The notes under the pieces were generated by a model. It saw nothing but the letters and a program-made list of their open reading frames with translations, ran no database searches and was not told the DNA's origin. The translations under genes and the position numbers were made by a program. Positions 2,069-45,640 of a DNA stretch of 64,000 nt are shown here, one piece after another; the first letter of the stretch is position 1, and each line of letters opens with the position of its first letter. The DNA lies in contig NZ_CP017705.1 of assembly GCF_002706795.1 (NCBI RefSeq), forward strand, positions 4,501,501 through 4,565,500, written 5' to 3'. This stretch comes from Brevibacillus laterosporus DSM 25. GTDB lineage: Bacteria > Bacillota > Bacilli > Brevibacillales > Brevibacillaceae.

Positions 2069-2098
2069 GTTAACAATGCTTGCTATTCACTTATATTG
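2069..2098 (+). promoter_or_regulatory. Class I locus promoter, copy 1 (GTTAA-N16-CTTATATTG)
   Basis: GTTAA at 2069-2073, 16-nt spacer, CTTATATTG at 2090-2098. One of seven copies of the same two-box motif that stand in front of gene blocks in this locus. It would serve the small gene at 2128-2373 and the following genes. Confidence 0.65.
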
Positions 2099-2127
2099 AG
2101 TTGGAAACCATCTTTGAGAATAGGGAG

Positions 2128-2373
2128 ATGAGCATATTGTTAGACAACCTGTTTACACAAATTACGTCCAGCTTCGGACGAGATACCTATTTCATGGGAC
2201 TGGCTTTCCGATTCAAAAAAGGTATTGTGGTGATAGATATATACGAAAATAGTCAACAAGAAGAGGAATACACTATAGAATTTGTTAGTTTTATTGAACA
2301 TGAGCCGCCAGTATTTGTAATCGTAAAAAGCAAAGAGGAGCTTTATATTGCTATCCAAGAACTTGCTTTGTAA
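2128..2373 (+). CDS. Small hypothetical protein
   Basis: 81 residues if started at ATG 2128. A longer version from TTG 2080 is possible but would overlap the -10 box of the promoter at 2069-2098 and has no ribosome binding site, so the shorter form is preferred. AGGGAG lies directly against ATG 2128, which is closer than usual. The sequence alternates hydrophobic and charged residues (YFMGLAFRFKKGIVVIDIYE, then EEEYTIEFVSF) and looks like a small alpha/beta protein. No family recognised. It opens the tail locus. Confidence 0.5.
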   Translation: MSILLDNLFTQITSSFGRDTYFMGLAFRFKKGIVVIDIYENSQQEEEYTIEFVSFIEHEPPVFVIVKSKEELYIAIQELAL

Positions 2374-2448
2374 CCTTTTTATTTATTACGTTTTGTTCCT
2401 TACTTTTATAGTAGTGGTCCTATCTTCATGAAAGGTTGCGAAACTTTG

Positions 2449-2500
2449 CATTCTCGTTTTGTAAGAGCCGTGGCAACAGCCAAAACGAGTATAGGAGAAT
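2449..2500 (+). other. Intergenic hairpin with alternative pairings
   Basis: CTCGTTTTG (2453-2461) pairs perfectly with CAAAACGAG (2481-2489) around a 19-nt loop. The flanking CATTCTC can instead pair with GAGAATG just downstream, and the CTC is shared, so two structures are mutually exclusive. No U-tract follows, so it is not a classic terminator. It lies between two small genes of the first transcription unit. Confidence 0.35.
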
Positions 2501-2585
2501 GTCAGATTTGATGAACTCCCGTAAGTAGATATGACGAAAAGAAATTAGGATTAGAAGATTGTTAGTAGAATTGGGTGGATAACAA

Positions 2586-2846
2586 ATGCAAGAATTAATG
2601 AGATGTGTACAGTGTGGTTTTCGCTATGTAACGGAAAAGGCAAAACAAAATTATCTAACAGAAGGATTTTCAGGGCAACCCCAAACATGCTTGCATTGTT
2701 TGGGGGAGAGAACAGGAAAAGTAATGAATGTTCATGGAAATCTTGTATTTCCTCATGAAGTTGAGTCATCTAATAAACAAATGTATATTCCTAAAACGGT
2801 TATTGAGGGATGTCGACCTTGCATGAAAAGAAGAGGACTTCTTTAG
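2586..2846 (+). CDS. Small four-cysteine (zinc-ribbon-like) protein
   Basis: 86 residues from ATG 2586, with GGGTGG 7 nt upstream. Cysteine pairs CVQC near residue 8 and CLHC near 36, plus CRPC near 78, give three CxxC pairs, typical of a small zinc-binding protein. Cysteine-rich small proteins are common among phage accessory genes, but no specific family is recognised. It lies in the first transcription unit, upstream of the tail tube gene. Confidence 0.6.
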   Translation: MQELMRCVQCGFRYVTEKAKQNYLTEGFSGQPQTCLHCLGERTGKVMNVHGNLVFPHEVESSNKQMYIPKTVIEGCRPCMKRRGLL

Positions 2847-2956
2847 GAGTTCTCCGTTATAGCACAGATCGTTTGGTGGAGTTTCGTTAACAAGGTTATT
2901 AGTAGATAGGTTAGAAAAGCCAAACAGAAAAAAGCTCTGTTTCAATACGCAGGTTA

Positions 2957-2987
2957 GTTAAACGGTGGACTACTTTAACTTATATTG
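2957..2987 (+). promoter_or_regulatory. Class I locus promoter, copy 2, upstream of the tail tube gene
   Basis: GTTAA at 2957-2961, 17-nt spacer, CTTATATTG at 2979-2987. It precedes the major tail protein gene by about 220 nt, leaving a long 5' leader. Apart from this promoter and a possible 40-codon ORF at 3107-3229, nothing else was recognised in 2847-3209. Confidence 0.65.
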
Positions 2988-3106
2988 TGATACGAACCAT
3001 GAAAAAGATGATGGGGTTTAGTGGTATCAATGTGTTCGTATCTATACGCATATGTTACGTGTTACTCGTCAGAGAACTATGATTTTCATGATTTGGATAG
3101 GAACTG

Positions 3107-3229
3107 ATGAAGTCAGATGTTTTCAGGAGTTACTTTATTGAAAAAGCGTGTAAGGAACACGAAATTACTACAACCATTGTTTTGAGAAGATTAGAGGAGG
3201 GTTTTATACATGAGTACAACGAAGAATAA
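3107..3229 (+). CDS. Possible 40-residue leader ORF overlapping the tail tube start
   Basis: ATG 3107 to TAA 3227-3229, with GATAGGA 4 nt upstream. The predicted peptide (start MKSDVFRSYFIEKACKEHE) has a protein-like, charged helical composition. It runs 20 nt into the tail tube gene in another frame. It could be a small real gene, a translationally coupled leader, or chance. Confidence 0.3.
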   Translation: MKSDVFRSYFIEKACKEHEITTTIVLRRLEEGFIHEYNEE

Positions 3230-4268
3230 GAAAATGTTAATTAAGGGTGCAGGTAAATTTATGGCAAAAATACCCAATTGCGATGAATTAATCACAATTG
3301 GTACGTTGAACAACATGCGCTTAGATATTCAACTTGACATGCAAGATATTGAAGGTGGGGATTCCAGCGTTGCTCTGGATACCCTTTTACGGAAAAAGAC
3401 TATCGATATCACTGCCGAGGATGCAAAATTTGACCTGAACCTTGTCCGTTTGGCCCTAGGTTCTAAATTACGAGAAGGTGTAAGTGGCGCCACATATAAA
3501 ATGGTGACGGAGACCGTACAGGTTCCTTCTTCCGCACCTTATCAGGGTACACTTTCTGAATCCTCCGTATCGAGTCCCGCTCATAAAGCGTATGAGAGCA
3601 CTATTAACGGAACTGACTTAACATCGAATGTAACACTTGCAGGTAAAACAATCACTTTTGATGACTCTCTTGCAGGTAAAACCGTGGTGATCGTGTATCC
3701 AGTTGCATTGAGTGGAGTTTCTTATGATGAGGATGGTTTTGTTTGGGTATTAGAAGAGAAGAATACGGTAAAAGAGACAGCTGGTAAATTCGAAGTTGAT
3801 CTTGTTTTTGGAGCTGCCCTGCATAAAGATCCACAAATTTCTGTTCGTACATTGAAAGGAAACAAACTATTAAAGAAAACGACAAGTGCTACTCCAAAAG
3901 AAAATCAGTACACAGTAAATGGCGGCACGTTATCTTTCCATTCTTCCTTAAAGGATGTAGATATTTACGTAAACTACAAACGTAACGAAGTAGTAGATGT
4001 GTTGGATATTAGCACGAAGGATATGCCTCTTACTGTTCATGTCATTCATGATGGTCAATTTGAACAAAAAGACGGTTCTATCCAGGGATATCAAACAGAA
4101 CTATACTTGTGCCGCGTGAAATCAAACTTTACGGTGGATGCACAACGTCAACAGGCTTCTACACATAGCGTAACCTTGACTGTTATTGATCCTGATCGTG
4201 TGGACGGAAAACTCGGAACAATCAAACGATACGAAGCCCAAAGTGCTAATGCTAAAAATCTTTGCTAG
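3210..4268 (+). CDS. Major tail tube protein
   Basis: 352 residues from ATG 3210 with GAGGAGGG about 8 nt upstream, the strongest ribosome binding site in the area. The N-terminus (KMLIKGAGKFMAKIP, then MRLDIQLDMQDIEGGDSS) and the C-terminal QRQQASTHSVTLTVIDPD fit phage tail tube proteins, which stack as hexameric rings. The middle (about 100-280) holds two beta-sandwich inserts (AGKTITFDDSLAGKTVVIVY; VDIYVNYKRNEVVDVL) like surface-decoration domains of tail tubes. Similar modules occur in the fibre gene at 20174. No tail sheath gene is found, so the tail should be non-contractile. A terminator follows immediately at 4268-4298, as expected where tail tube must be made in excess of downstream proteins. 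Confidence 0.8.
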   Translation: MSTTKNKKMLIKGAGKFMAKIPNCDELITIGTLNNMRLDIQLDMQDIEGGDSSVALDTLLRKKTIDITAEDAKFDLNLVRLALGSKLREGVSGATYKMVTETVQVPSSAPYQGTLSESSVSSPAHKAYESTINGTDLTSNVTLAGKTITFDDSLAGKTVVIVYPVALSGVSYDEDGFVWVLEEKNTVKETAGKFEVDLVFGAALHKDPQISVRTLKGNKLLKKTTSATPKENQYTVNGGTLSFHSSLKDVDIYVNYKRNEVVDVLDISTKDMPLTVHVIHDGQFEQKDGSIQGYQTELYLCRVKSNFTVDAQRQQASTHSVTLTVIDPDRVDGKLGTIKRYEAQSANAKNLC

Positions 4269-4395: not shown

Positions 4396-4914
4396 ATGGG
4401 GGAAATTACAAGTGGGGGTGTCACCGTTTTGAGTGATCGAAATTTTGCGATTCCAAAAAATAATGAAATGACAACGGAACAAACAATTCAACAAGAGGTC
4501 GCAAGTCAAGTCCAAGAGCAACAAGGAAATCCAATACCTGAGGAAGAGTCATCCAAGGTACTAAGTGAAGAAGAGGCGTCCATACGTGAAAAGGTTTTTT
4601 TTGAGGAGGACGAAAAGGTTAGGTTGCGAGATGGTAAGACGTATTCTATACCTCCTCTTGGTATTAGGGATGCCAGAAAGCTGATGAAATTGTTAAATAC
4701 AATTGATTCAGGAATCATTATTGCCAATTTAATTCCAGAGTCAGAGCTAGACGATGATCGTTATGAGGAATTATTAAAGGTACTCTTAATGGCGTTTAAA
4801 CCCTATTATAAACACGTGGATACGGAGTACTTGGCTGATTATGTAGACCTAGAGACTGCCAAGAGGATCATCGATGCAATGATTGGATTAAATGGATTAA
4901 AAAAGTCAATGTAA
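4396..4914 (+). CDS. Tail assembly chaperone, unshifted product (gpG-like)
   Basis: 172 residues as read from ATG 4396. TTG 4429 (behind GGGGGTG) and ATG 4468 are alternative starts and the true one is unsure. The protein is acidic, with a Gln/Glu-rich N-terminus and a helical C-terminal half (IRDARKLMKLLNTIDSG; YADY-like AKRIIDAMIGLNGL). Its position between tail tube and tape measure genes, and the slippery heptamer just before its stop, match the lambda gpG/gpGT arrangement. There gpG coats the tape measure protein and gpGT recruits tube subunits. Confidence 0.8.
   Translation: MGEITSGGVTVLSDRNFAIPKNNEMTTEQTIQQEVASQVQEQQGNPIPEEESSKVLSEEEASIREKVFFEEDEKVRLRDGKTYSIPPLGIRDARKLMKLLNTIDSGIIIANLIPESELDDDRYEELLKVLLMAFKPYYKHVDTEYLADYVDLETAKRIIDAMIGLNGLKKSM
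4899..4905 (+). promoter_or_regulatory. Programmed -1 frameshift site A AAA AAG
   Basis: In the zero frame the codons are TTA AAA AAG TCA ATG TAA, giving the heptamer A_AAA_AAG at 4899-4905, the same one used in E. coli dnaX. A -1 slip enters the frame that stays open from 4905 to the stop at 5253-5255. This is where the G/T frameshift lies in siphophage tail operons. Confidence 0.85.
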
Positions 4915-5255
4915 CCACTGAGGAAGAAGATGAGGAGTATAAGAAACGAGCTCCTATCAATTGGGCTGATATTTTTTTCAAGCTGGCCCATTATTGTCAT
5001 CTGGATAAATATCAGGTTTGGCAGCTGACATTGCCTCAGTTGGGTTTTTATTTAGAGCAATGCAATGAACATATCGAATTCACTGTGAAAGTTTCAACCA
5101 TGTCCTTTGGAAGCCTGTTTGGAGGAGGTTTATCCTCCAAGGATCAGTCACAAGGACAGATCGAGACTAGACCAGATGGGACTGGGACTTACATGGATGG
5201 CTATAAAGTAGCAGATGAAACAGATATGGAATGGCTTGCCAACGTTTTGGGTTAA
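4905..5255 (+). CDS. Tail assembly chaperone, frameshift extension (gpT-like part of gpGT)
   Basis: This frame has no start of its own with a ribosome binding site and continues the upstream chaperone after a -1 shift at 4899-4905. The extension begins VNVTTEEEDEEYKK and continues with WADIFFKLAHYCHLDKYQVW and LPQLGFYLEQCNEH, a helical pattern typical of T-domain extensions. The fused product from 4396 would be about 286 residues. The ATG-like starts inside (for example 5100) are not supported. Confidence 0.8.
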   Translation, partial: VNVTTEEEDEEYKKRAPINWADIFFKLAHYCHLDKYQVWQLTLPQLGFYLEQCNEHIEFTVKVSTMSFGSLFGGGLSSKDQSQGQIETRPDGTGTYMDGYKVADETDMEWLANVLG

Positions 5256-9934: not shown

Positions 9935-10552
9935 GTGACCCAACAAAACAGCTTTCATTCAGAGGATTACATATATAAAAAGCGTCTCTTTTATGATAAT
10001 GGCATACGTTTTACCGAGGTAAAAGCAAAGCTTATCAATGATTACAAACCACCTTCTCCTAGTCTAAAAACACATGTAAATCAGACACTGTCGTCTTCTG
10101 CTGGATTGATCAGTCATGGAACCTCTCATTATACGACGACGCTTACTTTATTGTTTTACAGTAAAAAGGAATTTGCTGACTGGTTACAGTTTAGTGGAGC
10201 TAAGCATCGTTACTATGATGAAAAAGGAACGATTTATGTCGGGATTCTTACAGGGGAACCAGACATTAACACAGCTGAAATGGAAACGAAGTATATTGTG
10301 ACAATTGGGCTTTCCCTTATCCGTAAGCAAGAGCACGAATACCGATATATCAATCAATTTATTGATATGGAGAAGCATTGGGCAAAAACATATGTTGACG
10401 AAATGCAACAGAGAGGATTAATCGCTAACTATGAAGATGAAGGTGAAGCGGTTTCTTATTTCCGACCTGACAAAGTATGTACACGAGCAGAAGGAATCAC
10501 CTTTTTGATGAGGACATACCGTCATATTGATCGGATTCTAAGGGGGTATTAA
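9935..10552 (+). CDS. Tail-tip protein with a C-terminal SLH domain (distal tail-like)
   Basis: 205 residues from GTG 9935 with a perfect AAGGAGGT 6 nt upstream. Residues 1-135 are beta-rich (HYTTTLTLLFYSKKEFADWL, GTIYVGILTGEP) and occupy the distal tail protein position between tape measure and hub. Residues about 141-200 match an S-layer homology domain: FIDMEKHWAKTYVDEM, then RGLIANYEDE, YFRPDKVCTRAEGITFLMR. These carry the HWA, gly-loop, FRP and TRAE hallmarks. SLH domains bind pyruvylated secondary cell wall polymers of S-layer bacteria. The stop overlaps the start of the next gene (TAATG), so the two are translationally coupled. Confidence 0.75.
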   Translation: MTQQNSFHSEDYIYKKRLFYDNGIRFTEVKAKLINDYKPPSPSLKTHVNQTLSSSAGLISHGTSHYTTTLTLLFYSKKEFADWLQFSGAKHRYYDEKGTIYVGILTGEPDINTAEMETKYIVTIGLSLIRKQEHEYRYINQFIDMEKHWAKTYVDEMQQRGLIANYEDEGEAVSYFRPDKVCTRAEGITFLMRTYRHIDRILRGY

Positions 10553-11604
10553 TGGTGCGGCGTTGGATTGATATTGATCCACTAGATTGGTTTTATCGAG
10601 ACTTATTGGAAGCTACTCGTCTTCATCTCGACGGTGAAGGTACACAAAGCTTTATCGATGGAATGTATTATGATGCTTTCGAAAAGGGCTATGAGCGCAT
10701 GGTCAAGCGCTTTGTTACCGTGGATGGGCAAGAGGAATTTCTCGTGCCTGATTATAAGGTGCATGATGATAACCCTATTTTTGTGATCGTACATGGAATT
10801 GAGGTTCAGCCAGAGAAGGTGGAAAATGGAAAAATCACGATGTCGAATCCGATGTCAGGGGGAATTGAGGTCGTCTGCATTGCTTTTGGAAAGCCTAAAT
10901 ATAAACAAGTAGGCTGTGTATATACCCCTTTTAGCACCTGCGGAGAAAATGATGTTCACATGCCATCTGCGGATGTAATGAAAAAATCTCAATATACGTT
11001 TAGCTTACGTTTAAAGCCGGAAGCTTGCACTGTACTAGGTGTAAAGCTAAAACGCAAGCTAGTAGATATTCAACCAGGAGACAATCCTGAACAGAAAATC
11101 AATGAAGCTATTGGATTTAATCGGGATGTATTTGTAATACATGCAGGACGAGTTTATCTACCATACAGGTATAATGGCTATCCAGCAAAAGTGACGTATA
11201 ACTACAAGGTAGGTGGGAAATTCAAAACCACGACAGACACAGTGATTGTAGAGTCAGGATGTGTACGTTATAATGATCGGTTTTTTCCAAAAGTCCAATT
11301 GAGAAGATTTGAATTTATGGTTTTTCTACAACGGATGAGAAGAAGCTTTTACAATCGATTTACAGATAAGGAGTACAAGCCTAATCCATCTCCAACTCGT
11401 TACATCACCGATCGGGATACCTTTTCTGGTAAGTGGTACGAGACGGATGTGATTGATATTTTAGAGGAAAGATTTTTGGACGGATGCTATGCATTTCCAT
11501 TATATGAGGATGAACGTTTTGAACCCGAAGAATGTATAACTCGTGCTGAAGCAATCGTTTTTCTCAATCGTTTCATTGAATGGGCAATAGAAAGGTTTAG
11601 GTAG
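10552..11604 (+). CDS. Second tail-tip protein with SLH modules
   Basis: 350 residues from ATG 10552. Residues about 60-235 are beta-rich (FVIVHGIEVQPEKV, VYLPYRYNGYPAKVTYNY). Residues about 283-345 form an SLH-like unit: YITDRDTFSGKWYETDVIDI, ERFLDG, ERFEPEECITRAEAIVFLNR. A partial second copy lies at about 240-262 (DRFFPKVQLRRFEFMVFLQR, matching the back half of the domain). It is coupled to the preceding SLH protein and followed 10 nt later by the hub gene. Together the pair could place several SLH modules around the tail tip. A virion role is inferred from position. Confidence 0.7.
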   Translation: MVRRWIDIDPLDWFYRDLLEATRLHLDGEGTQSFIDGMYYDAFEKGYERMVKRFVTVDGQEEFLVPDYKVHDDNPIFVIVHGIEVQPEKVENGKITMSNPMSGGIEVVCIAFGKPKYKQVGCVYTPFSTCGENDVHMPSADVMKKSQYTFSLRLKPEACTVLGVKLKRKLVDIQPGDNPEQKINEAIGFNRDVFVIHAGRVYLPYRYNGYPAKVTYNYKVGGKFKTTTDTVIVESGCVRYNDRFFPKVQLRRFEFMVFLQRMRRSFYNRFTDKEYKPNPSPTRYITDRDTFSGKWYETDVIDILEERFLDGCYAFPLYEDERFEPEECITRAEAIVFLNRFIEWAIERFR

Positions 11605-15121: not shown

Positions 15122-15171
15122 AAAAAGCAAGGAATGTTTACGTATCAAACGATAACTGTTCCTTGCTTTTT
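15122..15171 (+). terminator. Terminator after the hub gene
   Basis: AAAAAGCAAGGAA (15122-15134) / TTCCTTGCTTTTT (15159-15171), a 13-bp perfect stem with terminal T-run. The right arm lies inside class I promoter copy 4. Confidence 0.85.
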
Positions 15172-15180
15172 CTTATATTG
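15151..15180 (+). promoter_or_regulatory. Class I locus promoter, copy 4
   Basis: GATAA at 15151-15155, 16-nt spacer, CTTATATTG at 15172-15180. It sits on the distal arm of the terminator and would drive the long fibre block that begins at 15204. Confidence 0.65.
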
Positions 15181-15203
15181 AAATAGAAGCTGAGGTGTTG
15201 ATT

Positions 15204-15620: not shown

Positions 15621-15622
15621 GC

Positions 15623-16009: not shown

Positions 16010-16025
16010 TGAGGGAGAAGATTGT

Positions 16026-18677: not shown

Positions 18678-18717
18678 GAATAGGGGATTTAAATAAAACA
18701 TATAAGGGGTGTATGAT

Positions 18718-20139: not shown

Positions 20140-20173
20140 GATTAGGTAAAACACGTAGAGAGGTGAATGCGTA

Positions 20174-25552: not shown

Positions 25553-25560
25553 GGGAATTT

Positions 25561-26646: not shown

Positions 26647-26661
26647 GGAGGGTGTTTGGGG

Positions 26662-27495: not shown

Positions 27496-27569
27496 TTTTA
27501 CCATCTTCGGAGAATATCTAGTCCTTTATCCCTATAATGATTGTGAATATTTTAAAAGAGGTGATAATA

Positions 27570-28976: not shown

Positions 28977-29006
28977 GTTAAGGTTTCGTGTGGCTATCTT
29001 ATATTG
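28977..29006 (+). promoter_or_regulatory. Class I locus promoter, copy 5
   Basis: GTTAA at 28977-28981, 16-nt spacer, CTTATATTG at 28998-29006. It stands about 100 nt past the terminator and 47 nt before the next gene start, the cleanest promoter-gene pair in the locus. Confidence 0.7.
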
Positions 29007-29544: not shown

Positions 29545-29586
29545 TGAGGATGCTTACATCCAATACAATGGAGGGGGACTTTTACC

Positions 29587-33179: not shown

Positions 33180-33216
33180 CGAGCTTCCAATACAATGGAA
33201 CAGGGCGTGATATTAC

Positions 33217-37018: not shown

Positions 37019-37055
37019 AACCTCTGTCCTCCGTGGCAGGGGTTAATTTTTTATT
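37019..37055 (+). terminator. Terminator ending the fibre block
   Basis: AACCTCTG (37019-37026) / CAGGGGTT (37037-37044) followed by AATTTTTTATTCTTTTT. Its 3' arm supplies the -35 box of class I promoter copy 6. Confidence 0.75.
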
Positions 37056-37071
37056 CTTTTTACTTATATTA
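37042..37071 (+). promoter_or_regulatory. Class I locus promoter, copy 6
   Basis: GTTAA at 37042-37046, 16-nt spacer, CTTATATTA at 37063-37071 (last base differs). It precedes the lysis-type genes by about 160 nt. Confidence 0.6.
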
Positions 37072-37232: not shown

Positions 37233-37550
37233 GTGGATGCGAATGTAATGATCGCCATTATTGGGGGAGCAGTATCCCTTAGTACAGGTATTATCGGTTA
37301 TATATCTGGCCGAAATAACAATCAAAAAGAAGTAAGTATTTCAGATCGTCAGTTATTGTCTCAAGCTGAACAGACATTTCGAGCAGAATTACGAGAGGAA
37401 TTGAGAATCTACAAAGAAGAAATCAAGGCATTAAAACAAGAGATTGAAGTATTACGGCAAGAAAACTTCAAACTTCTGATGGAAAACAGATCGCTTAATA
37501 CAAAAGTAGAATCTTTGATGCTGCGTTTAGATGGGGACCACAATGAGTAG
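37233..37550 (+). CDS. Membrane-anchored coiled-coil protein (XhlA-like lysis accessory)
   Basis: 105 residues from GTG 37233 (AGAAGGTGA upstream). One N-terminal membrane segment (VMIAIIGGAVSLSTGIIGYI), then a coiled coil (about 45-98: EELRIYKEEIKALKQEIEVL, NFKLLMENRSLNTKVE). This layout, next to an amidase and a holin-like gene, resembles XhlA-type or i-spanin-like lysis accessory proteins, but the helix order is reversed relative to XhlA, so the call is by context. Confidence 0.55.
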   Translation: MDANVMIAIIGGAVSLSTGIIGYISGRNNNQKEVSISDRQLLSQAEQTFRAELREELRIYKEEIKALKQEIEVLRQENFKLLMENRSLNTKVESLMLRLDGDHNE

Positions 37551-37658
37551 AACTGTATACTTATTCATTATGCATAAAACCGTATTAAAATCGGAACTCT
37601 TTTTAGATTAACGCAGCAGGCTATGCATATCAGATGAAAAAGTAGGTGAGCATCATTC

Positions 37659-38393
37659 ATGTTTGTAATGAAATACCCCATTCAAACAAAATATGTAACT
37701 CCAAGAACCAAAAGACGTTCAGGAATTCCTATGAAGCGAATCGGTTTTATCGTGGCTCACGATACGGGAAACCCTGGATCAACAGCTCTTGCCAATATTC
37801 GTTATTATCAAAATACCTGTGACAGCACGAATGCTTCAGCCCACACTTTTATCGATGACACAGGAGTCTGGGAATGTATTCCTGCTACTACAGGCAAGCC
37901 AGAAAAAGCATGGCATGTTCTCTACGAAATCCCACGGAATAATCAATTATTCAATGGTGATGCCAATGATATTGCGATCGGGGTAGAGCTTTGTTATTTG
38001 TATCATTTGCAACCAGAAAAACATATTGTAGCCCACTGTGATCTTGATCCCAATCGTAAATTAGACCCCACAAAAAACGCCTTTAAGAGGATGAACATCA
38101 CATGGAACCAATTCATTCAGGATGTTATTAAAGAATATAAGCTATGTACACCAAAATCCAACATAATATCTTCGGTAGTTACAAAACCAGCAGAGGGGAA
38201 TGAAGAGGACTTGAAACTAAATGAGTGGCAATTCGATATGCTGACCCAAGCCTTGGTTGATCTTACTCGTAACGGTTATTTAACGGATAAAACTTGGGAA
38301 GAAAAAGCAAAATCTAGAACATTAATACAGAGTGAGCTTAGCTTTATTACGACGATGGTATTACAGCGTAATCTAACAGGTGAAACCAAATGA
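37659..38393 (+). CDS. N-acetylmuramoyl-L-alanine amidase (Amidase_2) with an apparent internal deletion
   Basis: 244 residues from ATG 37659. The Amidase_2 fold is clear: GFIVAHDTGNPGSTALANIR (first zinc His), SAHTFIDDTGVWECIPA, DIAIGVELCY, HIVAHCDLDPNRKLDP (second His and Asp). In related endolysins about 24 residues of helix separate the VELCY strand from the following helix end; here VELCY is joined directly to LYHLQPEKH. All metal and catalytic residues remain, but the core may be destabilised. The C-terminal 80 residues (EEDLKLNEWQFDMLTQALVD) look like a small wall-binding or dimerising tail. It overlaps the holin-like gene by 4 nt (ATGA). Confidence 0.8.
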   Translation: MFVMKYPIQTKYVTPRTKRRSGIPMKRIGFIVAHDTGNPGSTALANIRYYQNTCDSTNASAHTFIDDTGVWECIPATTGKPEKAWHVLYEIPRNNQLFNGDANDIAIGVELCYLYHLQPEKHIVAHCDLDPNRKLDPTKNAFKRMNITWNQFIQDVIKEYKLCTPKSNIISSVVTKPAEGNEEDLKLNEWQFDMLTQALVDLTRNGYLTDKTWEEKAKSRTLIQSELSFITTMVLQRNLTGETK

Positions 38394-38689
38394 CAGATTT
38401 TATATTAGAAAAAGCTCAACTGCTCATCCTATTAGCCTTTTTAACAGAATCACTTACAGAAATTATTAAAGGAATGTTTTCAAAGTGGATGAAAGATCAA
38501 ATGACTTATTTTATATCCATCTTAATAGGGATTATCCTCTGCTATGCTTTTGGAATGAATCTATTTGGCATGCAACATATGGGGAAGCATGTCTCTATCG
38601 TTTCAGCTGGACTAATCGTGAGTCGAGGCGCTAATTATGTGCATAGCTTTGTCAAGAATTTAGGGATGTTATCAAAAGGACGTCAATAA
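38390..38689 (+). CDS. Holin-like small membrane protein
   Basis: 99 residues from ATG 38390. Two to three hydrophobic segments: KAQLLILLAFLTESLTEII, MTYFISILIGIILCYAFGM and VSIVSAGLIVSRGANYV, with a charged C-terminus (MLSKGRQ). Size, topology and ATGA coupling to the amidase gene fit a holin, which would let the amidase reach the wall and release particles by lysis. The sequence family was not recognised. Confidence 0.65.
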   Translation: MTDFILEKAQLLILLAFLTESLTEIIKGMFSKWMKDQMTYFISILIGIILCYAFGMNLFGMQHMGKHVSIVSAGLIVSRGANYVHSFVKNLGMLSKGRQ

Positions 38690-38808: not shown

Positions 38809-38890
38809 GTATGTAAAGACGATGATTTTAAGAATTAGATTAGGAACACACATTCCTGTTTCTAAGAAATTATAAGTGGAAATATCGTGC

Positions 38891-38916
38891 AACTTTTCAA
38901 AAGGTTGCATCGACTA
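38891..38916 (+). promoter_or_regulatory. Class II (ECF-like) promoter motif, copy 1
   Basis: AACTTTT at 38891-38897, then 13 nt, then CGACTA at 38911-38916. The same two-box motif occurs at 40031, 40136 and 44603. The GCAAC-TTTT / CGAC layout resembles ECF sigma promoters (AAC in the -35, CGTC-like -10). It lies about 490 nt upstream of the ECF-like sigma gene, and its -35 is inside a near-palindrome (TGCAACTTTTC/AAAAGGTTGCA). Confidence 0.5.
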
Positions 38917-39197
38917 CTATAGTATTTGCTACTGAAGGACTATTACTTTAGATGTAAAAATATAGTTGATACCTTAGGTCTTAAACATATTATCTGTTTT
39001 TAGTCCTGGAATACATTAGTCGGTAAGTCCTGACTATATGATTTTCTGATTTGAAAGTATGCCAGGAGGATTTATATCAAACACAAAAATAGCAAGGGGA
39101 AATAAAAATGAAGAATTGACAACTAGATATAAATATAGAGAATTAAGGGATTTTCTTACTTTTACATATACTTCCTAAGAAAAAATTACTAAGGTTA

Positions 39198-40055: not shown

Positions 40056-40133
40056 TATTTTGCAAAAAAGAAAAAAACATGAAGTGTTATTAAACACATC
40101 TATCAAAAGCACATTAAATATTTGGACTTATTG

Positions 40134-40160
40134 CACCTTTTCAAAGATATAGACCGACTA
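40134..40160 (+). promoter_or_regulatory. Class II promoter motif, copy 3
   Basis: GCACCTTTT (TTTT 40138-40141), 13 nt, CGACTA at 40155-40160, about 155 nt before the metalloprotease start. It shares TTTTCAAA with copy 1. Confidence 0.5.
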
Positions 40161-40314
40161 CTTTTACATGAATATTGAATAGGATCGGACAATGGGTATG
40201 TAATCTATTCCAGAGATTGTTGATGTTCTGATCTTGATCACATTTATAAAAGACCAGATTGGTTTATCTTACACACTCTTACACAAAGAAAAAGCATGGA
40301 GGAGAATTAATTGA

Positions 40315-41442
40315 ATGTTAGCTAGATATGTAGTAGGTGGGAGATTGGATCCCCCTTATTACCCTACTAAAACAAGAGCTCATTTTATTGGACGAGATAT
40401 TTATGTAAAAGGCATGAGAAGCCCGGGTACTAAAAGAGTCATTACTGATACTTTTCGCTTATCACATGATGTAGAATTTTATGCTATTTCTATAAGATCT
40501 GATATTATTACTCCCTCAGATCATTGGAATCTTCTCATTGATAACAAATTGATTGCAAAAAATATTTATTGTAAAAATTTTGAGGAGGGGCTCTATTTCC
40601 AGGTTGCCCACCCAATCAAAGCAGGGACTATCTGTAAACTAGAGTTCTATACCGAGGTTGGTGACAGGAAGCAAATAGAGGTCATGTTCCATCTTCTTAG
40701 TGATCCAGAAGTCGAACCGATTTTGACTGGAACGATTGATAATGGAAATTATCCCGATCCGCTACCTCCTGATCCAGTTCCCGTACCAATTCCGGATGAC
40801 GATGATACATGTAAAAATCCAATTGTATGGAAGCCTTATGCAACAGCTAGGGAAGCTGAGAATTGGTGTAATAGCATAAATATTGATGCTAATTTTCAAC
40901 GCAATGTCCATGCAGCTAACTATGTAACGGAAGGACTTGTACATCTTTTGAATCATTGTTGCGGTTTCAAAACAATGATTTTAAAACATAAACTCACCAT
41001 TAATATCAAGGATGCAAAAGGAGCAAACGGATACTTTAATCCTCCAACGGGAGAGGTTGTTGTGAACAAAAAATACGATTTTTCCAATGCAGATAAGATT
41101 GCACTAGCAGAATATCAAGCTGGCCAAAAATCGTCTCCACATAAATTGCGAACCATTATCCATGAAATAGGTCATTGGTTGCATTTTCATAATGTAGGGG
41201 CTGATCAATTCTACCGATTTTCAGCGCTTGATCCCGACAATTATGGGCCTAAAACGATCTTGTCCTACTCAGAAGCTACATATATTGCTACTCATCTATG
41301 TAGCTATGCGACCAGTTGGTATCCAATCGAATTAATTCCAGAGACATTTACGGCGAAAGTGACGGATATCCCCATCGATCCCAAGATACAGGAATGGTAC
41401 CAGCAATACGGTGGGTATGAATGTAATAACTGGAAGGGGTGA
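40315..41442 (+). CDS. Tail-associated zinc metalloprotease (docking domain fused to HExxH domain)
   Basis: 375 residues from ATG 40315 with GGAGGAG 10 nt upstream. Residues 1-130 are homologous to the small tail protein at 15623. A proline-rich hinge follows (about 148-165: YPDPLPPDPVPVPIPDDDD), then a peptidase domain with HEIGHWLHFH at about 282-291. The downstream YSEATYIATH and PIELIPETFTAKV may supply the third, glutamate ligand in gluzincin style. It is not a metzincin, since no His stands at the HExxHxxGxxH position. No signal peptide, so delivery with the particle is likely rather than secretion. Target unknown: virion maturation, S-layer digestion and toxic effector are all possible. 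Two class II motifs precede it. Confidence 0.75.
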   Translation: MLARYVVGGRLDPPYYPTKTRAHFIGRDIYVKGMRSPGTKRVITDTFRLSHDVEFYAISIRSDIITPSDHWNLLIDNKLIAKNIYCKNFEEGLYFQVAHPIKAGTICKLEFYTEVGDRKQIEVMFHLLSDPEVEPILTGTIDNGNYPDPLPPDPVPVPIPDDDDTCKNPIVWKPYATAREAENWCNSINIDANFQRNVHAANYVTEGLVHLLNHCCGFKTMILKHKLTINIKDAKGANGYFNPPTGEVVVNKKYDFSNADKIALAEYQAGQKSSPHKLRTIIHEIGHWLHFHNVGADQFYRFSALDPDNYGPKTILSYSEATYIATHLCSYATSWYPIELIPETFTAKVTDIPIDPKIQEWYQQYGGYECNNWKG

Positions 41443-41447
41443 TAGCA

Positions 41448-41666
41448 ATGGATTTTACGATACCTTGTGTTTTTTGTAAATATTTAAATCGTGACAGCAG
41501 GTCAAAAATGAGTTGTATGGCCTTTCCTAATGGCATTCCCAAACAAATACAAGAATTAAGGGTTATTCACACAACTCCATTTGAAGGTGACAACGGAATA
41601 GTTTATGAGCCTTTACATGAAACAATGGACTATTTTCTTTATTTTTCGGGAGAGGTTAGAGAGTAA
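41448..41666 (+). CDS. Small cysteine-containing protein of a widespread hypothetical family
   Basis: 72 residues from ATG 41448 (GGAAGGGGTGA upstream), preferred over GTG 41439, which overlaps the previous stop. Motifs CVFCKYL, CMAFPNGIPKQIQE and FEGDNGIVYEP match a common Firmicute family of small cysteine proteins with the pattern CxxCxH/Y...CxAFPxGIP...GDNGIxFEP. Their function is not known. It is translationally close to the metalloprotease and heads a run of small accessory genes. Confidence 0.65.
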   Translation: MDFTIPCVFCKYLNRDSRSKMSCMAFPNGIPKQIQELRVIHTTPFEGDNGIVYEPLHETMDYFLYFSGEVRE

Positions 41667-41697
41667 TGTAATGAACAACAGATAGGGGGTAGATCAA

Positions 41698-41931
41698 ATG
41701 AAAAAAAAGTCAGGGCAAAAGATCAAAGTATGTAAGGATCTGGAGTTTATGGATCGAATGATTAAAACCGGTACAGTAGGTATCATCGAAGGTACTCTGA
41801 AAGGAAGCAGTGGTCTTCGAGACTATGTAATAGTAAAAGTAGCGGATATACAAATGCATATTGCAGCAGAGGAATTTGACAATCAATTTTCCTATGTAAC
41901 TGAACAAAAGACTAAGGATGGAAAAGGGTAA
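41698..41931 (+). CDS. Small hypothetical protein
   Basis: 77 residues from ATG 41698 (AGGGGGTAG upstream). Small beta-barrel pattern (TVGIIEGTLKGS, DYVIVKVADIQMHIAAEEFD) with lysine-rich ends. SH3/OB-like size and layout, no family recognised. Sits directly before the interrupted gene at 41933. Confidence 0.55.
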   Translation: MKKKSGQKIKVCKDLEFMDRMIKTGTVGIIEGTLKGSSGLRDYVIVKVADIQMHIAAEEFDNQFSYVTEQKTKDGKG

Positions 41932-41932
41932 T

Positions 41933-42238
41933 ATGAAAAAAGAGACCGTTGTAAGAAACGTTAGAAAACTGTTGATTCTTTATCCGGAAACACGTACCAA
42001 TGATAAATTACTACTCTCTTACTATTGGCGGCTTATCGACAAACTAGATTTTAGTAACATGGAATCTTTTATGTAAGATTATATCGGAAAAGCGACGATC
42101 CCAGAAACGATTACAAGAGCAAGAAGGCTTGTGCAGAAACAATCCCCTTTTACGCAACGATCCAGTGATATTTTCAAGCAGTTTCATCAGCTATCACATA
42201 TTAAAAAGCAAGATAAAAGGAAGCGGGTTGTGTTGTAA
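41933..42238 (+). pseudogene. Small phage-type gene interrupted by one in-frame TAA
   Basis: From ATG 41933 (AAAAGGG upstream) the frame gives MKKETVVRNVRKLLILYPET and on to FSNMESFM, then TAA at 42074-42076. Without that codon it continues DYIGKATIPETITRARRLVQ and on to TAA 42236-42238, 101 codons. The two halves together match a common phage protein pattern in which a Tyr/Trp-rich N-part is followed by F(I)xxATxPETIxRxRRxxQ. A single base change (from CAA, AAA or GAA) would explain the stop. The end overlaps the next start (TAATG), so the original coupling is preserved. Function of the family unknown to me. Confidence 0.7.
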
Positions 42239-42567
42239 TGATAGGTTATTTAAATAAATGTCCACATTGCAAGAAAGAGGCATCCTTTGTATTGGAAGAA
42301 TTAGAATGCGATAAATCATTGATTGCTTGGTGTCGTTCTTGCGGGAACTACATCAATCAAACTTTTACGTTAGAGACTTTTCGTAAGTGGTGGGAGAGAT
42401 ACCAGCAGGGAGAGGAAAAGATCGAACCTCCAATCAAAAAGGAAATGTTGGAAAAGTTAAAAATGTTAGAGGAAGCTATTGCACTTGATTCCTCCTGTAA
42501 TTTGAACAGGGTAGAAATACATTTGAAAGATTTTACTGATTACGTATATAAGAATGATGGGGAGTAG
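42238..42567 (+). CDS. Zinc-ribbon accessory protein
   Basis: 109 residues from ATG 42238. Two cysteine pairs, CPHC (about 8-11) and CRSC (about 33-36), form a zinc ribbon; the remainder is helical and charged (KKEMLEKLKMLEEAIAL). Small zinc ribbons of this kind are frequent phage accessory or Lar-like proteins. Family not identified. Confidence 0.6.
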   Translation: MIGYLNKCPHCKKEASFVLEELECDKSLIAWCRSCGNYINQTFTLETFRKWWERYQQGEEKIEPPIKKEMLEKLKMLEEAIALDSSCNLNRVEIHLKDFTDYVYKNDGE

Positions 42568-42677
42568 ATCGATGAAATAAGTTAGTCATCCATTCATCAC
42601 TCTATCCTGCCCGGTAATTGGAGCCTGAATAATAAATAGCATAAAATACACGAACCTATTCGTTTTGGAGTGAGAAG

Positions 42678-43016
42678 ATGATAAACCTTGATGCGCATAC
42701 CATTATCTCAGATCAAGAGATTGTTGATACGAAGGCAACCATTGATCTTCATTTACTTGTTAAAATTCTGAGTGGGTATGCAACCATGCGAGAAGAAACC
42801 AAGCAACTATTGAAAAAAAATAAAGTTTTGGCGGTTAACAATGAACAGCTTTGTAAGGAATTACAAGTCTTATACCAACAAATCAAAATGCTACAGACTG
42901 AGTTAGCTACTTATCATAAAAATCAAACTGATAAGGAAAGTAGAAAAAAAGATCAAAATGAATTCTTAATGAAGCACGATCCGTTTTTCTGGGGCTTTTT
43001 TGACAATAGAGAATAA
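42678..43016 (+). CDS. Coiled-coil hypothetical protein
   Basis: 112 residues from ATG 42678. A central coiled coil (about 45-90: EETKQLLKKNKVLAVNNEQL, ELQVLYQQIKMLQTELAT) is followed by a charged stretch and the aromatic end FFWGFFDN. No family recognised; helical accessory protein of the tail locus. Confidence 0.55.
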   Translation: MINLDAHTIISDQEIVDTKATIDLHLLVKILSGYATMREETKQLLKKNKVLAVNNEQLCKELQVLYQQIKMLQTELATYHKNQTDKESRKKDQNEFLMKHDPFFWGFFDNRE

Positions 43017-43054
43017 ATTACAAAGGAAATGGGACGCCAGATGGGAGGGAAGAA

Positions 43055-43342
43055 GTGTACACTTTAGGTATACTTATCGAGAAGATTGATGAGATTCAAC
43101 ACGTTATTCATCAAATCAACAGAGCAATGAGACATACTTCATCTGCTTCTGTAGAAGTGCTCCGTCGACATAAAGAGCAATTAGAAGAGATTGTAGAATA
43201 TATGATGGAACAAGAAATTTCGTCCTCTCTCGATTTGGAAGGCATGCTGATAAAACATAAAAAATGCTTGCGAGAATGTATGGAATCATCGTATAGCAAC
43301 AAAGGGCCCTATACAGAGAGGAGCAGGGACTATACGCCATGA
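43055..43342 (+). CDS. Small helical protein, tandem paralog 1
   Basis: 95 residues from GTG 43055 (GGGAGGG upstream). All-helical (ILIEKIDEIQHVIHQINRAM; VLRRHKEQLEEIVEYMMEQE) with KKCLRECMES near the end. The following gene ends in IAACMRECVTF with a similar helical spacing, so the pair may be diverged tandem duplicates. Overlaps the next gene by 4 nt. Confidence 0.5.
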   Translation: MYTLGILIEKIDEIQHVIHQINRAMRHTSSASVEVLRRHKEQLEEIVEYMMEQEISSSLDLEGMLIKHKKCLRECMESSYSNKGPYTERSRDYTP

Positions 43343-43584
43343 AAATAAAATGTAAGGATCTATATGAAGCGTTACATCAAACAAATAAGTCTCTTACGGA
43401 TATGGGATTAGATATCGAAAATATTGGTTGTAGTACAGCCAATTGCTTAGTTACTTATGAACATCTAAGGTTAAAAGAGAGTTACATGGAGCTCTACAAT
43501 GCAGATGTATCCATGAAGGAAGTAGACCTTGATGAAATACAAAAACAAATAGCTGCTTGTATGCGAGAATGTGTAACCTTTTAA
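43339..43584 (+). CDS. Small helical protein, tandem paralog 2
   Basis: 81 residues from ATG 43339, start overlapping the previous stop (ATGA). Helical, with DVSMKEVDLDEIQKQIAACM and the end CMREC like its neighbour. Function unknown. A terminator follows immediately. Confidence 0.5.
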   Translation: MKIKCKDLYEALHQTNKSLTDMGLDIENIGCSTANCLVTYEHLRLKESYMELYNADVSMKEVDLDEIQKQIAACMRECVTF

Positions 43585-43612
43585 GACGGGAGGAAGTACC
43601 CCCGTCTTTTTT
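43583..43612 (+). terminator. Terminator after the small accessory genes
   Basis: AAGACGGG / CCCGTCTT with a 12-nt loop and TTTTTTG. Confidence 0.85.
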
Positions 43613-43664
43613 GTTTTGATGTGTAGAACTGATAAGTACCGTCTTAGAGGGAGGATAGATAGAA

Positions 43665-44354
43665 TTGATATTTGTAAGAACGTATGTGATGGCACCTATC
43701 ATTCGCAACGATCCAGGAGGTTGGATCGACAACTATAGTATGATAATGCAGATAAAGGATGGTTGCATGATAATTGGAATGAAACCCATCATGGTTATGT
43801 TGCTGATGATAACAAATCTATCTAATTCAAATCTGATTTCACATTTGGACAGTATGCCAGCAAGTCAAAGGACTGCGGCTTCGATAGCCCTAACAGCACC
43901 AATTTTTGCTCAGCACAAACAAGTTCACGCGACGATCATACAGCATATGACCTCCAAAAATATTTCAATCACAGAGGCAGCAAAAATATCAAACTATATT
44001 CTTACTTTTTCTGATAAGTACAACGTAGATCCTACCCTAATAGTAGCTATGATAGAGGTGGAAAGTTATTATCAACCTAATCGGATTGGCAAACACGGTG
44101 ATACAGGCCTTATGCAAATCTTACCTTCTACACAGCGGTATATGGGTATAAAAGGAGAGCTTACAGATCCAGAAGTGAATATTCATGTTGGATGCAAATA
44201 TTTGGCTTACACACAAAGCAGGTTCGGACCAGATTTAGGGATCGTTGCTTATAACCAAGGAGAGGGTAATATCGTACGTGGTACATTTAAAACAACCTAC
44301 CTGATGAAAGTTAAACAAGTATGGTCAACTATGAAAAATAGGACATCCTACTAA
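43665..44354 (+). CDS. Lytic transglycosylase (SLT domain)
   Basis: 229 residues from TTG 43665 (GAGGGAGG 10 nt upstream); ATG 43689 is an alternative. A hydrophobic segment at about 35-55 (GCMIIGMKPIMVMLLMITNL) could anchor it. Residues about 110-220 form the SLT fold: catalytic Glu in MIEVESYYQPN, GLMQILPSTQRYMG, CKYLAYTQSRFG and AYNQGEGNI. It cleaves the MurNAc-GlcNAc bond. In tail loci such enzymes help particles cross peptidoglycan or assemble at the wall. It stands alone between two terminator-like hairpins and just before the second sigma gene. Confidence 0.85.
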   Translation: MIFVRTYVMAPIIRNDPGGWIDNYSMIMQIKDGCMIIGMKPIMVMLLMITNLSNSNLISHLDSMPASQRTAASIALTAPIFAQHKQVHATIIQHMTSKNISITEAAKISNYILTFSDKYNVDPTLIVAMIEVESYYQPNRIGKHGDTGLMQILPSTQRYMGIKGELTDPEVNIHVGCKYLAYTQSRFGPDLGIVAYNQGEGNIVRGTFKTTYLMKVKQVWSTMKNRTSY

Positions 44355-44426
44355 GGAATTTTGGAATTGTTTGACGAGATTAAATAAATGAATCACAGGC
44401 ACTCCTTCCAGTAGACATTGGGATTA

Positions 44427-44474
44427 CCCTTGAGTGGGCAATATCCAAGGTATTGGTAAGGGGTGTATTTTTTT
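44427..44474 (+). terminator. Probable terminator after the transglycosylase gene
   Basis: Outer CCCTT/AAGGG with an inner CAATA/TATTG stem, followed by GTGTATTTTTTT. The rest of the 44355-44659 gap contains the class II motif at 44601-44625. Confidence 0.55.
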
Positions 44475-44600
44475 ACAGTAAAAGGATATAGATGTCATAT
44501 TTGTAGTGCTACACCAAATCATTTCGAGGGTTTTCTTCTAAAGCTTCTGCATGGAAAAATAGTGATCTCATGAAACAAAACAATCCCACGCGTATTTGCA

Positions 44601-44625
44601 TCTTTTAGACAGGATAGCTCGACTA
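44601..44625 (+). promoter_or_regulatory. Class II promoter motif, copy 4, at the second sigma gene
   Basis: TCTTTT (TTTT 44603-44606), 13 nt, CGACTA at 44620-44625, only 35 nt before the start of the group-3-like sigma gene. The spacing is ideal for a promoter and supports control of this gene by the ECF-like sigma. Confidence 0.6.
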
Positions 44626-44659
44626 TTATAGGGAGACGGAACGAAAGAGATGACTAGGA

Positions 44660-45640
44660 GTGAAAGAAAGATTGTTAAGTCAACGATATCTCCATTTACG
44701 GAAAGAAAACATAAAAGACATGCATAATACAGACCTTATTCGTGCATGTAAAGAAGATAAAGAGTTGTTGGGAGAGTTTTTGGAAGAAAACAAGGAGTTT
44801 CTTTTCTCGATTATCAAACATTATAAAGGCAACATTGAAGAATTGTGTTTTAAGTTTAGAGTAACAGAAGAAGAATTGTTACAGCATGCTTATATTGGTG
44901 TTATTAGTGCTCTACAGGAATTCGATTTTCATCGAGGAATCAAGTTTACAACCTTTGTGGTCAGACCGATTATTTGGGAGATCAATCAACTGCTTTACAA
45001 CGATTCACGATTTGTAAGATTAAGTAGGGGAGCAGTTGAACAAATTAAACGTATGATAGCCATTGAGGAAAAGCTAGGATATCGACCCGGCGAGGAGGAA
45101 ATGGCAAAGCTTCTTGCTATCCCGCTGGAAAGATATAAGGAGATTGCCCGATTTAGTGATGAAATTGAACATTATCATGCTTATGAAAACTTCGAGGTGA
45201 TAGATCATAATTGCCATAATATTGAGGAGCATGTGGTGGATAAAGTATATGTAGAACATTTACTAGGTAGTTCAATATGTAACGATTTTGAGAAGACGAT
45301 TATGAAGCTTATCATGGAAGGTATAAATAATACTCAAATTGCTGAACGTCTACAGGTATATCCCATGACGATTAACAGAGCGATAATGCGTATTAGAAAT
45401 AAGGTTCTGAATTTTCAATCAAATAAATCAGACTTGCAAAATAATGTAACGTCTAAATATGATCGAGAAATCAAGTTGATAGAAGAAGAGAGCAGATCAC
45501 GCAACAAGCTGATGTGTGTTAATGAAATATCAGAACTCCTTGGGGGATATGGATTTGACAAGCAAGCATACTCTAATCGGATTTTATACTACATTCGTCA
45601 AAAGGTAAGCAAAAAGTGGCAGGATCAGCCGGACGGATGA
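44660..45640 (+). CDS. Sigma-70 family RNA polymerase sigma factor (group 3-like)
   Basis: 326 residues from GTG 44660; the AGGAG overlaps this codon, so TTG 44672 may be the true start. Region 2: LLQHAYIGVISALQEFDFHR, GIKFTTFVVRPIIWEINQLL, the DxHRGxKFxTYxxxxIRxxI pattern of SigF/SigB/FliA-type factors. Region 3: FVRLSRGAVEQIKRM and GYRPGEEEMAKLLAI. Region 4: FEKTIMKLIMEGINNTQIAE, VYPMTINRAIMRIRN, a helix-turn-helix. About 70 C-terminal residues beyond region 4 are unusual. A class II motif lies 35 nt upstream. I infer that it transcribes the class I promoters of the tail genes. It is the last gene of the locus. Confidence 0.8.
   Translation: MKERLLSQRYLHLRKENIKDMHNTDLIRACKEDKELLGEFLEENKEFLFSIIKHYKGNIEELCFKFRVTEEELLQHAYIGVISALQEFDFHRGIKFTTFVVRPIIWEINQLLYNDSRFVRLSRGAVEQIKRMIAIEEKLGYRPGEEEMAKLLAIPLERYKEIARFSDEIEHYHAYENFEVIDHNCHNIEEHVVDKVYVEHLLGSSICNDFEKTIMKLIMEGINNTQIAERLQVYPMTINRAIMRIRNKVLNFQSNKSDLQNNVTSKYDREIKLIEEESRSRNKLMCVNEISELLGGYGFDKQAYSNRILYYIRQKVSKKWQDQPDG

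Follow-up and report, generated by a model that had tools for sequence, protein, structure and literature searches.

Is a set of phage tail genes that stands in a bacterial chromosome without head genes the ruin of a prophage, or a device that its host has kept? A locus that raises this question lies in the genome of Brevibacillus laterosporus DSM 25 (G000; 5.40 Mb in one contig, C1), in a stretch of 64,000 nucleotides referred to here as the window (G000:C1:4501501-4565500), and was compared across a genus set of five genomes (G000-G004). An earlier note on the letters of this window had described a headless, non-contractile tail locus with two sigma factors and had suggested a large F-type-like particle. 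We conclude that the locus is quite probably a chromosomal F-type tailocin-like element, derived from a siphophage of the type of Brevibacillus phage Jenst that has lost its genes for head, packaging and integration and almost all of those for replication, and equipped with a two-sigma cascade. Its gene content, headlessness, motif classes and conservation are established directly from the sequence.

The relationship to Jenst, a 126 kb phage described as a complete siphovirus (PMC4909266), provides the framework for the analysis. In protein searches most genes between 847 and 45640 match this phage, and by homology the region represents the tail half of a siphophage of this kind, with tube, chaperone, tape measure, hub, tip and fibre, lysis and two sigma factor genes. 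Thirty of 110 Jenst protein queries found a match at positions 800-45700 of the window and 80 did not. From the tube gene through the gene at 20174 the identity to Jenst proteins is 39-78% and the gene order is kept, which excludes a chance likeness; the large fibres are only 24-34% identical, over parts of their length. On the left, where the earlier note had seen nothing but tiny open reading frames (ORFs) before the tube gene, there are two small ORFs, and these are homologues of Jenst gp8 and gp174, standing in Jenst order between a gp4-like gene on the minus strand and the tube gene; relative to Jenst, whatever separates gp8 from gp174 has been removed, and so has the segment spanning gp173 to gp160, gp174 of Jenst itself lying about 11 kb left of the tube, beyond the head module. 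Position 2069, the start given in that note, is the first base of a promoter-like motif, and the locus begins further left with the gp4-like gene at 847-1848. On the right, the succession sig51, gp75, gp77, gp80, gp108, gp109, the transglycosylase gene (gp114) and sig117 is that of the Jenst minus strand, and replication and nucleotide genes that span about 34 kb in Jenst have shrunk to about 6 kb. All tail, lysis and sigma genes from 2069 to 45640 lie on the plus strand, with more than 20 kb given over to tip and fibre genes, and on this ORF, profile and Jenst matches agree with the earlier description.

At 800-45700 no match was found to TerL, the portal protein, the major capsid protein (MCP), gp160-gp164, gp166, gp167 or the integrase-annotated protein of Jenst, nor to its DNA polymerase, helicase and primase proteins, which leaves the gp4-like initiator as the sole replication gene; neither an integrase nor a recognisable repressor was found at the locus. 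The absence of packaging, portal, capsid, connector and integrase genes asserted in the earlier note holds for these queries. The same note had named a head and packaging module immediately outside the window as the finding that would speak against it, and the Jenst head and packaging proteins are matched neither within 80 kb to its left nor within 60 kb to its right (E-value 1e-4), a search that covers 204 kb with the window and detects Jenst-like heads only. PHROG head and packaging families were likewise absent from ten selected ORFs of the left flank and ten of the right, and the flanks match Jenst only in a distant RtcB-like protein and a DNA-binding protein.

Known types of element can be set against this inventory. 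An intact Jenst-type phage or prophage would have terminase, portal, capsid and replication genes and an integrase, none of which is present, the gp4-like initiator excepted; the head genes and contractile tail of a PBSX-type element are not found, and neither is the sheath protein of an R-type tailocin or extracellular contractile injection system (eCIS). The locus does share with F-type tailocins a siphophage tail module without a sheath, the lack of a head, a lysis cassette of its own (in the window) and selective maintenance as a chromosomal locus. The non-contractile type proposed in the earlier note is in line with the siphophage module and with the PHROG and Pfam matches of the scanned ORFs, among which there is no sheath family. 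The chaperone gene ends in a slippery heptamer, A AAA AAG at 4899-4905, that overlaps the -1 frame and is identical in Jenst, and a -1 frameshift in the chaperone gene is a hallmark of siphophage tail genes. Several tail proteins are labelled 'head and packaging, virion structural protein' in PHROG; because of their position and their colinearity with the Jenst tail module, this suggests a category label and not a head gene.

Two sigma factor genes, homologues of Jenst gp51 (sigma 1) and gp117 (sigma 2), accompany the tail module. Their PHROG matches (E 5e-8 for sigma 1, 2e-31 for sigma 2) and their likeness to the annotated sigma factors of Jenst (58% and 63%) are clearer than their Pfam matches, which all fall below the cut-off and correspond to sigma region 2 in sigma 1 and to sigma regions 2 and 3 and GerE in sigma 2. 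Among nine proteins submitted to PADLOC only sigma 2 was matched, by two models, weakly and over partial length, and a sigma 2 query in IMG/VR yielded three stretches that fit a pattern, none of them confirmed. Two promoter-like motifs were first seen in aligned intergenic gaps, and their patterns were derived from the sites of the locus themselves. The middle-type motif, GCAMCT-N16-CGACYAYW, which we take to resemble the promoters of extracytoplasmic function (ECF) sigma factors, stands upstream of sigma 1 and of the operon whose last gene is sigma 2; the late-type motif, GTTAA-N16/17-CTTATATTR, precedes the tail and lysis operons. In the form GTTAA-N14-18-CTTATATT the latter has four exact matches in the window, where 0.03 are expected, and over the whole 5.4 Mb chromosome the exact patterns occur four times (late-type) and twice (middle-type), always at the locus and on its strand, compared with one match each for reversed-pattern controls. 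With one mismatch the window has seven late-type matches and its 140 kb of flanking sequence none, compared with 0.67 for each shuffled locus.

Slightly relaxed patterns recover 13 middle-type and seven late-type sites in Jenst (shuffled mean 0.07 each). The middle-type sites of the phage include those upstream of sig51 and of the Gam-sig117 pair, and its late-type sites precede structural genes, with at least one (43719) falling within a fibre gene. A late-type match lies at most 700 bp upstream of the tube gene in 26 of 27 IMG/VR records, which include several near-identical ones and Jenst itself, and in none of 200 shuffles. Independent support for the motifs as sequence signals is their absence elsewhere in the chromosome together with their presence in Jenst and its relatives, and with no other exact chromosomal match and a pattern common to the parent phage, the sigma cascade proposed in the earlier note gains ground. 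We infer that the motifs act as promoters, the middle type read by sigma 1 and the late type by sigma 2. The Jenst paper describes a motif with 19 occurrences in Jenst and none found in B. laterosporus LMG 15441, from which it suggests phage sigma factors (PMC4909266); this is probably the middle-type motif described here.

The sister species permit a view of how the locus has been kept. As the comparison across Brevibacillus foreseen in the earlier note shows, G003 and G004 carry it at the same chromosomal place, with flanks shared on both sides and a DNA identity of about 86%, as in the flanks; the tube gene is matched in three of the five genus genomes, G001 and G002 lacking it, and neither MCP nor TerL of Jenst is matched anywhere in the whole genomes of G003 and G004. 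All but one of 35 ORFs are intact in both species, the exception being the amidase, and in 32 the ratio of nonsynonymous to synonymous substitution rates (dN/dS) is at most 0.28 in both comparisons, at dS of about 0.3-0.9. The exceptions are the amidase, the fibre at 22031 (0.37) and, in G004, the transglycosylase, whose ratio is invalid, as it was computed on a 19-residue ORF and the actual ORF has 210 residues. The tube, the distal tail protein and sigma 1 lie at 0.03-0.04, and the protein encoded at 29053 (163 residues) has no amino-acid change at all relative to G003. Three further close relatives in IMG/VR may be the same strains as G003 or G004; the two that are readable left of the tube (L103, L079) both have the order gp8-gp174-tube. 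A presumed empty site in G001 was considered, where two anchor genes lie 23.7 kb apart compared with about 66 kb here, but the intervening genes are not colinear and the claim was dropped.

A scan of named genomes with the hub as query extended the comparison to five Paenibacillus-type loci, around each of which 100 kb were read (P. tengchongensis, Paenibacillus sp. OK003, Paenibacillus sp. MAEPY2, P. amylolyticus Heshi-A3 and 'Bacillus' sp. FJAT-27264), and one B. laterosporus. Nothing beyond short fragments of TerL, portal and MCP is present in any of the five loci, and neither the five genomes nor that of the B. laterosporus yielded a Jenst-type capsid protein; in 12 genomes or records searched only the headed G049 matched. 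The initial notion that these loci are ordinary prophages, prompted by matches to gp164, gp161 and gp160, was dropped, as there is no capsid gene and the matches are mostly fragments. In P. tengchongensis gp162, gp163, gp164 and gp160 are near full length, so that the headless label there rests on the missing TerL, portal and capsid. All five loci retain the tube-to-hub genes, fibres, holin-endolysin and late-type motifs, and four retain sig51, gp75, sig117 and the helicase, primase and DNA polymerase genes (DnaC was seen in three); middle-type motifs occur at four of the loci, and the 100 kb of P. tengchongensis contain no sigma and no replication match. In P. amylolyticus the stretch stops within the helicase, and two of the three polymerase ORFs are shorter than those of MAEPY2. 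Because helicase, primase and DNA polymerase are kept in four of the five genomes, the element may copy its own DNA there before expression. Between MAEPY2 and P. amylolyticus, dN/dS is 0.03-0.13 for 14 of 15 computable tail genes and 0.20 for gp147, four more genes having saturated dS. Breakage is seen as well: P. amylolyticus and FJAT-27264 have a gp160 that is shortened or broken, and OK003 and MAEPY2 a transglycosylase in such a state.

These data bear on the possibility that the locus is a dead or dying prophage remnant, whose head was lost by a chance deletion and whose remainder has yet to decay. Partial losses that fit such a remnant exist in the amidase of G003 and G004, in the fibre block of record L114 and in the broken head and integrase fragments of the Paenibacillus-type loci. 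Purifying selection across almost the entire locus and its occupation of the same chromosomal place in three species argue in the opposite direction, as does the fate of gp161, which in four of the five Paenibacillus-type loci has been cut down to its end, with the late-type motif inside it retained before the tube gene and the adjacent head remnants fragmentary. We regard a remnant as unlikely.

The genome of DSM 25 also contains a second, distant Jenst-like element at about 1.13-1.19 Mb of C1 (L060-L062), mostly on the minus strand and with a head set, namely TerL (51% identity), portal (47%), capsid (35%) and connector homologues. It is the only place in the genus set, near 1.15 Mb of G000, where MCP and TerL matches were found, and its tube type occurs in nine further genomes of the 39 family genomes searched, in three of them near 0.68-0.71 Mb. 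Such an element could act as a headed helper for which the window locus serves as tail donor or satellite, the more so as Jenst is reported to infect B. laterosporus (PMC4909266). Yet Jenst MCP is unmatched in G003, G004 and the five Paenibacillus-type genomes, and the window locus possesses neither connector genes nor a packaging gene of its own; dependence on a helper is in our judgement very improbable.

Features of the headless tail locus and its promoter-like motifs (window coordinates; percentages are protein identities)
Feature	Position	Strand	Remarks
DnaA_N and HTH_36 protein	847..1848	-	distant homologue of Jenst gp4 (27%), replication initiation protein; dN/dS 0.07
Late-type motif GTTAA-N16-CTTATATTG, first operon	2069..2098	+	same site in G003 and G004
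Jenst gp8 homologue	2080..2373	+	47%
Jenst gp174 homologue, small Cys-containing protein	2586..2846	+	60%
Late-type motif, 17-base spacer	2957..2987	+	likely counterpart of the motif within Jenst gp161, ahead of gp160 and tube
Major tail (tube) protein, by position	3210..4268	+	Jenst gp159 homologue, 78%; dN/dS 0.03
Tail assembly chaperone, G-like	4396..4914	+	Jenst gp158 homologue
-1 frame extension, GT-like	4839..5255	+	Jenst gp157 homologue
Tape measure, 1524 residues	5231..9805	+	39% to Jenst counterpart (1738 residues)
Weaker late-type motif	9812		pattern match
Distal-tail-like protein, SLH-type domain	9935..10552	+	Jenst gp155
Tail protein	10552..11604	+	Jenst gp154
Tail hub, M23 peptidase and 3D domains	11615..15076	+	Jenst gp153, 65%
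Weaker late-type motif GATAA-N16-CTTATATTG	15151..15180	+	similar motif at same place in Jenst
Five tail-tip/structural genes (15195, 15623, 16026, 18709, 20174)	15195..22009	+	Jenst gp152-gp148
Fibre	22031..25552	+	68% in sister species, with other length; dN/dS 0.37
Three fibre/adhesin-like genes	25519..28802	+	Jenst gp146-gp144
Late-type motif	28977..29006	+	exact pattern
Four tail-surface genes	29053..37011	+	include GLUG-motif protein (30189-33179) and LamG/CBM96 protein (33217-37011)
Late-type motif, lysis operon	37042..37071	+	exact pattern
Lysis cassette: holin-like (37233), amidase (37659), small protein (38390)	37233..38689	+	Jenst gp137, gp135, gp134
Middle-type motif GCAACT-N16-CGACTACT before sigma 1	38889..38918	+	exact also in G003 and G004
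Sigma factor 1, 177 residues	39408..39941	+	Jenst gp51 (annotated putative sigma-24), 58%; dN/dS 0.03
Middle-type motif GCACCT-N16-CGACTACT before sigma 2 operon	40133..40162	+	one -35 base differs in G003 and G004
Virion protein	40315..41442	+	Jenst gp75; N-terminus like 15623-16009; HExxH in C-terminus
Small ORFs (41439, 42238, 43055, 43339)	41439..43584	+	Jenst gp77, gp80, gp108, gp109, same order
Lytic transglycosylase	43665..44354	+	Jenst gp114
Sigma factor 2, candidate late sigma	44660..45640	+	Jenst gp117, 63%; dN/dS 0.065

Some features of the locus and its surroundings deserve a separate description. The true start of the gp8 homologue probably lies further in, because its TTG start overlaps the late-type motif. 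The gp144 homologue (27537-28802) has about 410-421 residues, or matches near end to end, in ten headless loci (the window, G003, G004, L140, L141 and the five Paenibacillus-type loci; the gene is lost in L114), and in Jenst it has 119 residues, the middle part missing. Ahead of sigma 1 lies a 718-base leader (38690-39407) in which three species share several conserved blocks and which holds no plus-strand ORF of at least 60 residues; Rfam gave a single match in 37000-46000, far under its gathering score. Two tandem flagellin-like genes adjoin the locus on the left (-3359 to -592 relative to the window), of which G003 seems to have extra copies, and a protein of the PHROG 'transcriptional activator' family phrog_248 is encoded about 16 kb left of the locus (-14334 to -13942).

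The fibre at 22031..25552 is likely to bind the receptor, and the large fibres bear carbohydrate-binding and adhesin-like domains. The C-terminal half of the protein at 40315-41442 contains HEIGHWxH, an HExxH motif of the zinc-protease-like kind that is invariant in all eight homologues compared; a sequence search of the PDB returned zinc-protease matches for this protein only at E 0.5-0.9. Both observations could be accommodated by a tail-like particle with a job other than the killing of kin, such as the delivery of a protein (for example that HExxH protein) or adhesion to surfaces or insects. Since infectious Jenst has homologues of the HExxH protein and the fibres, these are not added cargo, and the lysis genes point to release by lysis; we consider another job very unlikely.

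For the tailocin-like element that we favour, the arrangement of genes and motifs suggests the following course of events. A small amount of sigma 1 (39408) would be made first and would read the middle-type motifs at its own gene and before 40315-45640, thereby raising its own level and turning on sigma 2 (44660), which would then read the late-type motifs at 2069, 2957, 28977 and 37042 (more weakly those at 9812 and 15151), leading to expression of the tube, tape measure and hub with the chaperone, and of the fibres, the holin and the amidase. The tails that then assemble would lack heads and have their length fixed by the 1524-residue tape measure, and the cell would lyse. The Jenst tail is given as 286 nm (PMC4909266), which on scaling to the shorter tape measure predicts flexible tails of roughly 250 nm, or 250-360 nm if the 415 nm measured for its near-identical sister SecTim467 is taken into account. 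The fibres may attach to related cells, whose wall would be opened by the M23 hub and whose membrane would be depolarised. Particle assembly, lysis and killing are predictions from the genes, and a self-activating cascade could serve as a switch in few cells.

Several observations weigh against this interpretation. The 'full set' of tail genes claimed in the earlier note extends to tube, chaperone, tape measure, hub and fibres, but Jenst gp160, which may be the tail terminator by position, is without a homologue at the locus. The AlphaFold models were unusable, with a mean predicted local distance difference test (pLDDT) score of 54 for the tube and 41 for the 40315 protein; a fold search with the poor tube model was not used, its TM-scores being about 0.15-0.25 when normalised by query length, and a PDB sequence search with the tube alignment found no match. 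The presence of the motifs at the locus is partly given by construction, because the patterns were read there; one of the seven one-mismatch late-type matches (39357) lies on the minus strand, the wrong one, and with two mismatches the 17 matches in the 64 kb window barely stand out from a shuffled mean of 10 for the 43.7 kb locus. No anti-sigma factor was recognised, and a LexA-type control was rejected, LexA-like sites not being in excess (17 versus 12.7 expected; 13 of 100 shuffles as high). The amidase (37659-38393) is whole in the window and in L114 and reduced to its C-terminal end in G003, G004, L112 and L113; with the catalytic part of the endolysin gone in G003, G004 and two of three close IMG/VR relatives, lysis there would need another enzyme, and the transglycosylase, which is present in all three species, or an endolysin from elsewhere might stand in. 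Finally, one relative is a broken copy: in L114, which shares its record with L079, the fibre genes from the counterpart of 15195 up to the holin are lost and the counterpart of 40315 is shortened.

How often did such loci arise? A tube tree with 34 rows unites 19 headless and two headed rows (Jenst, L082) in one group with support 100/99; L084 and L089 have fewer than 900 upstream bases, which makes their headless label less sure, and L105, with a partial tube, was left out. On this tree the headless label requires at least three changes, be it several losses or fewer losses combined with tail exchange. The late-type motif occurs in all eight loci read at length (the window, G003, G004 and the five Paenibacillus-type loci) and both sigma genes in seven of them, and for this reason the phage's own two-step cascade would drive these loci. 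We put forward, tentatively, the wider possibility that Jenst-type phages gave rise, perhaps repeatedly, to headless tail elements kept by their hosts in Paenibacillus and Brevibacillus, which would have their own two-step cascade, insulated from host promoters, and in some cases be self-amplifying tailocins.

Among known systems the closest are Jenst and SecTim467 (Jenstvirus), in which the tail, lysis and two sigma genes are homologous and largely colinear and the same two motif classes occur; unlike the locus, Jenst has head, packaging and replication genes, a third sigma factor and an integrase-annotated gene, of which the locus holds only the distant gp4 homologue. Listeria monocin (ftb cluster), compared here by its description, is likewise an F-type element of a Gram-positive host, with a siphophage-like tail and a holin-lysin cassette at the end, but has 18 genes compared with a locus of about 43 kb in which tip and fibre genes take up more than 20 kb, and the parts of the account consulted mention no sigma cascade (PMC7076858). 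Rhizoviticin of Allorhizobium vitis is an F-type, headless prophage-like locus with tail and lysis genes, and its regulatory region contains DnaA-type and DnaB-type genes, comparable to the replication genes of the Paenibacillus-type loci; in contrast to the single phage ancestor and sigma factors seen here, it is alphaproteobacterial, a chimera of two prophages, and carries a LexA-family repressor gene (PMC10811719). The defective prophage PBSX of B. subtilis likewise encodes a sigma-like factor, Xpf (PMC4243946), but has a capsid protein and a tail sheath (PMC9406221), neither of which was found at the locus, with its two sigma factors and two motif classes. A phage tail-like bacteriocin of the XkdK type has been described from the same species group, but it is contractile and PBSX-like, and Jenst is not mentioned in the main text of that report (PMC9406221).

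No description of the locus was found in the literature on Brevibacillus and Paenibacillus tail-like particles, Jenst, F-type tailocins or tailocins with sigma factors, as judged by titles and the openings of abstracts and with subscription journals mostly outside the search. The 'new class' that the earlier note had considered possible is not supported in that form, given that sigma factors and motifs are inherited from a Jenst-type ancestor and that Xpf of PBSX is a precedent for sigma-like control (PMC4243946). A repeated motif had already led the authors of the Jenst paper to propose phage sigma factors (PMC4909266); the cascade is thus inherited from the phage, and what is new is that it has survived in a headless locus of a host. 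The two promoter-like motifs, to judge from their occurrence, were inherited from the phage and fit an autoactivating two-step sigma cascade.

We read the locus most readily as a putative new family of F-type tailocins. F-type tailocins have been called rare, and the rhizoviticin report names only F-pyocin and monocin besides its own subject (PMC10811719); if our reading is true, it adds a large family from another phage lineage. It would do so in a species that is being developed for use as a biopesticide (PMC9406221). Jenst and the headless loci can be viewed as a before-and-after pair, revealing which phage genes a host keeps on domesticating a tail, and the compact two-sigma circuit is directly testable and could show how lysis for such a weapon stays limited to few cells.

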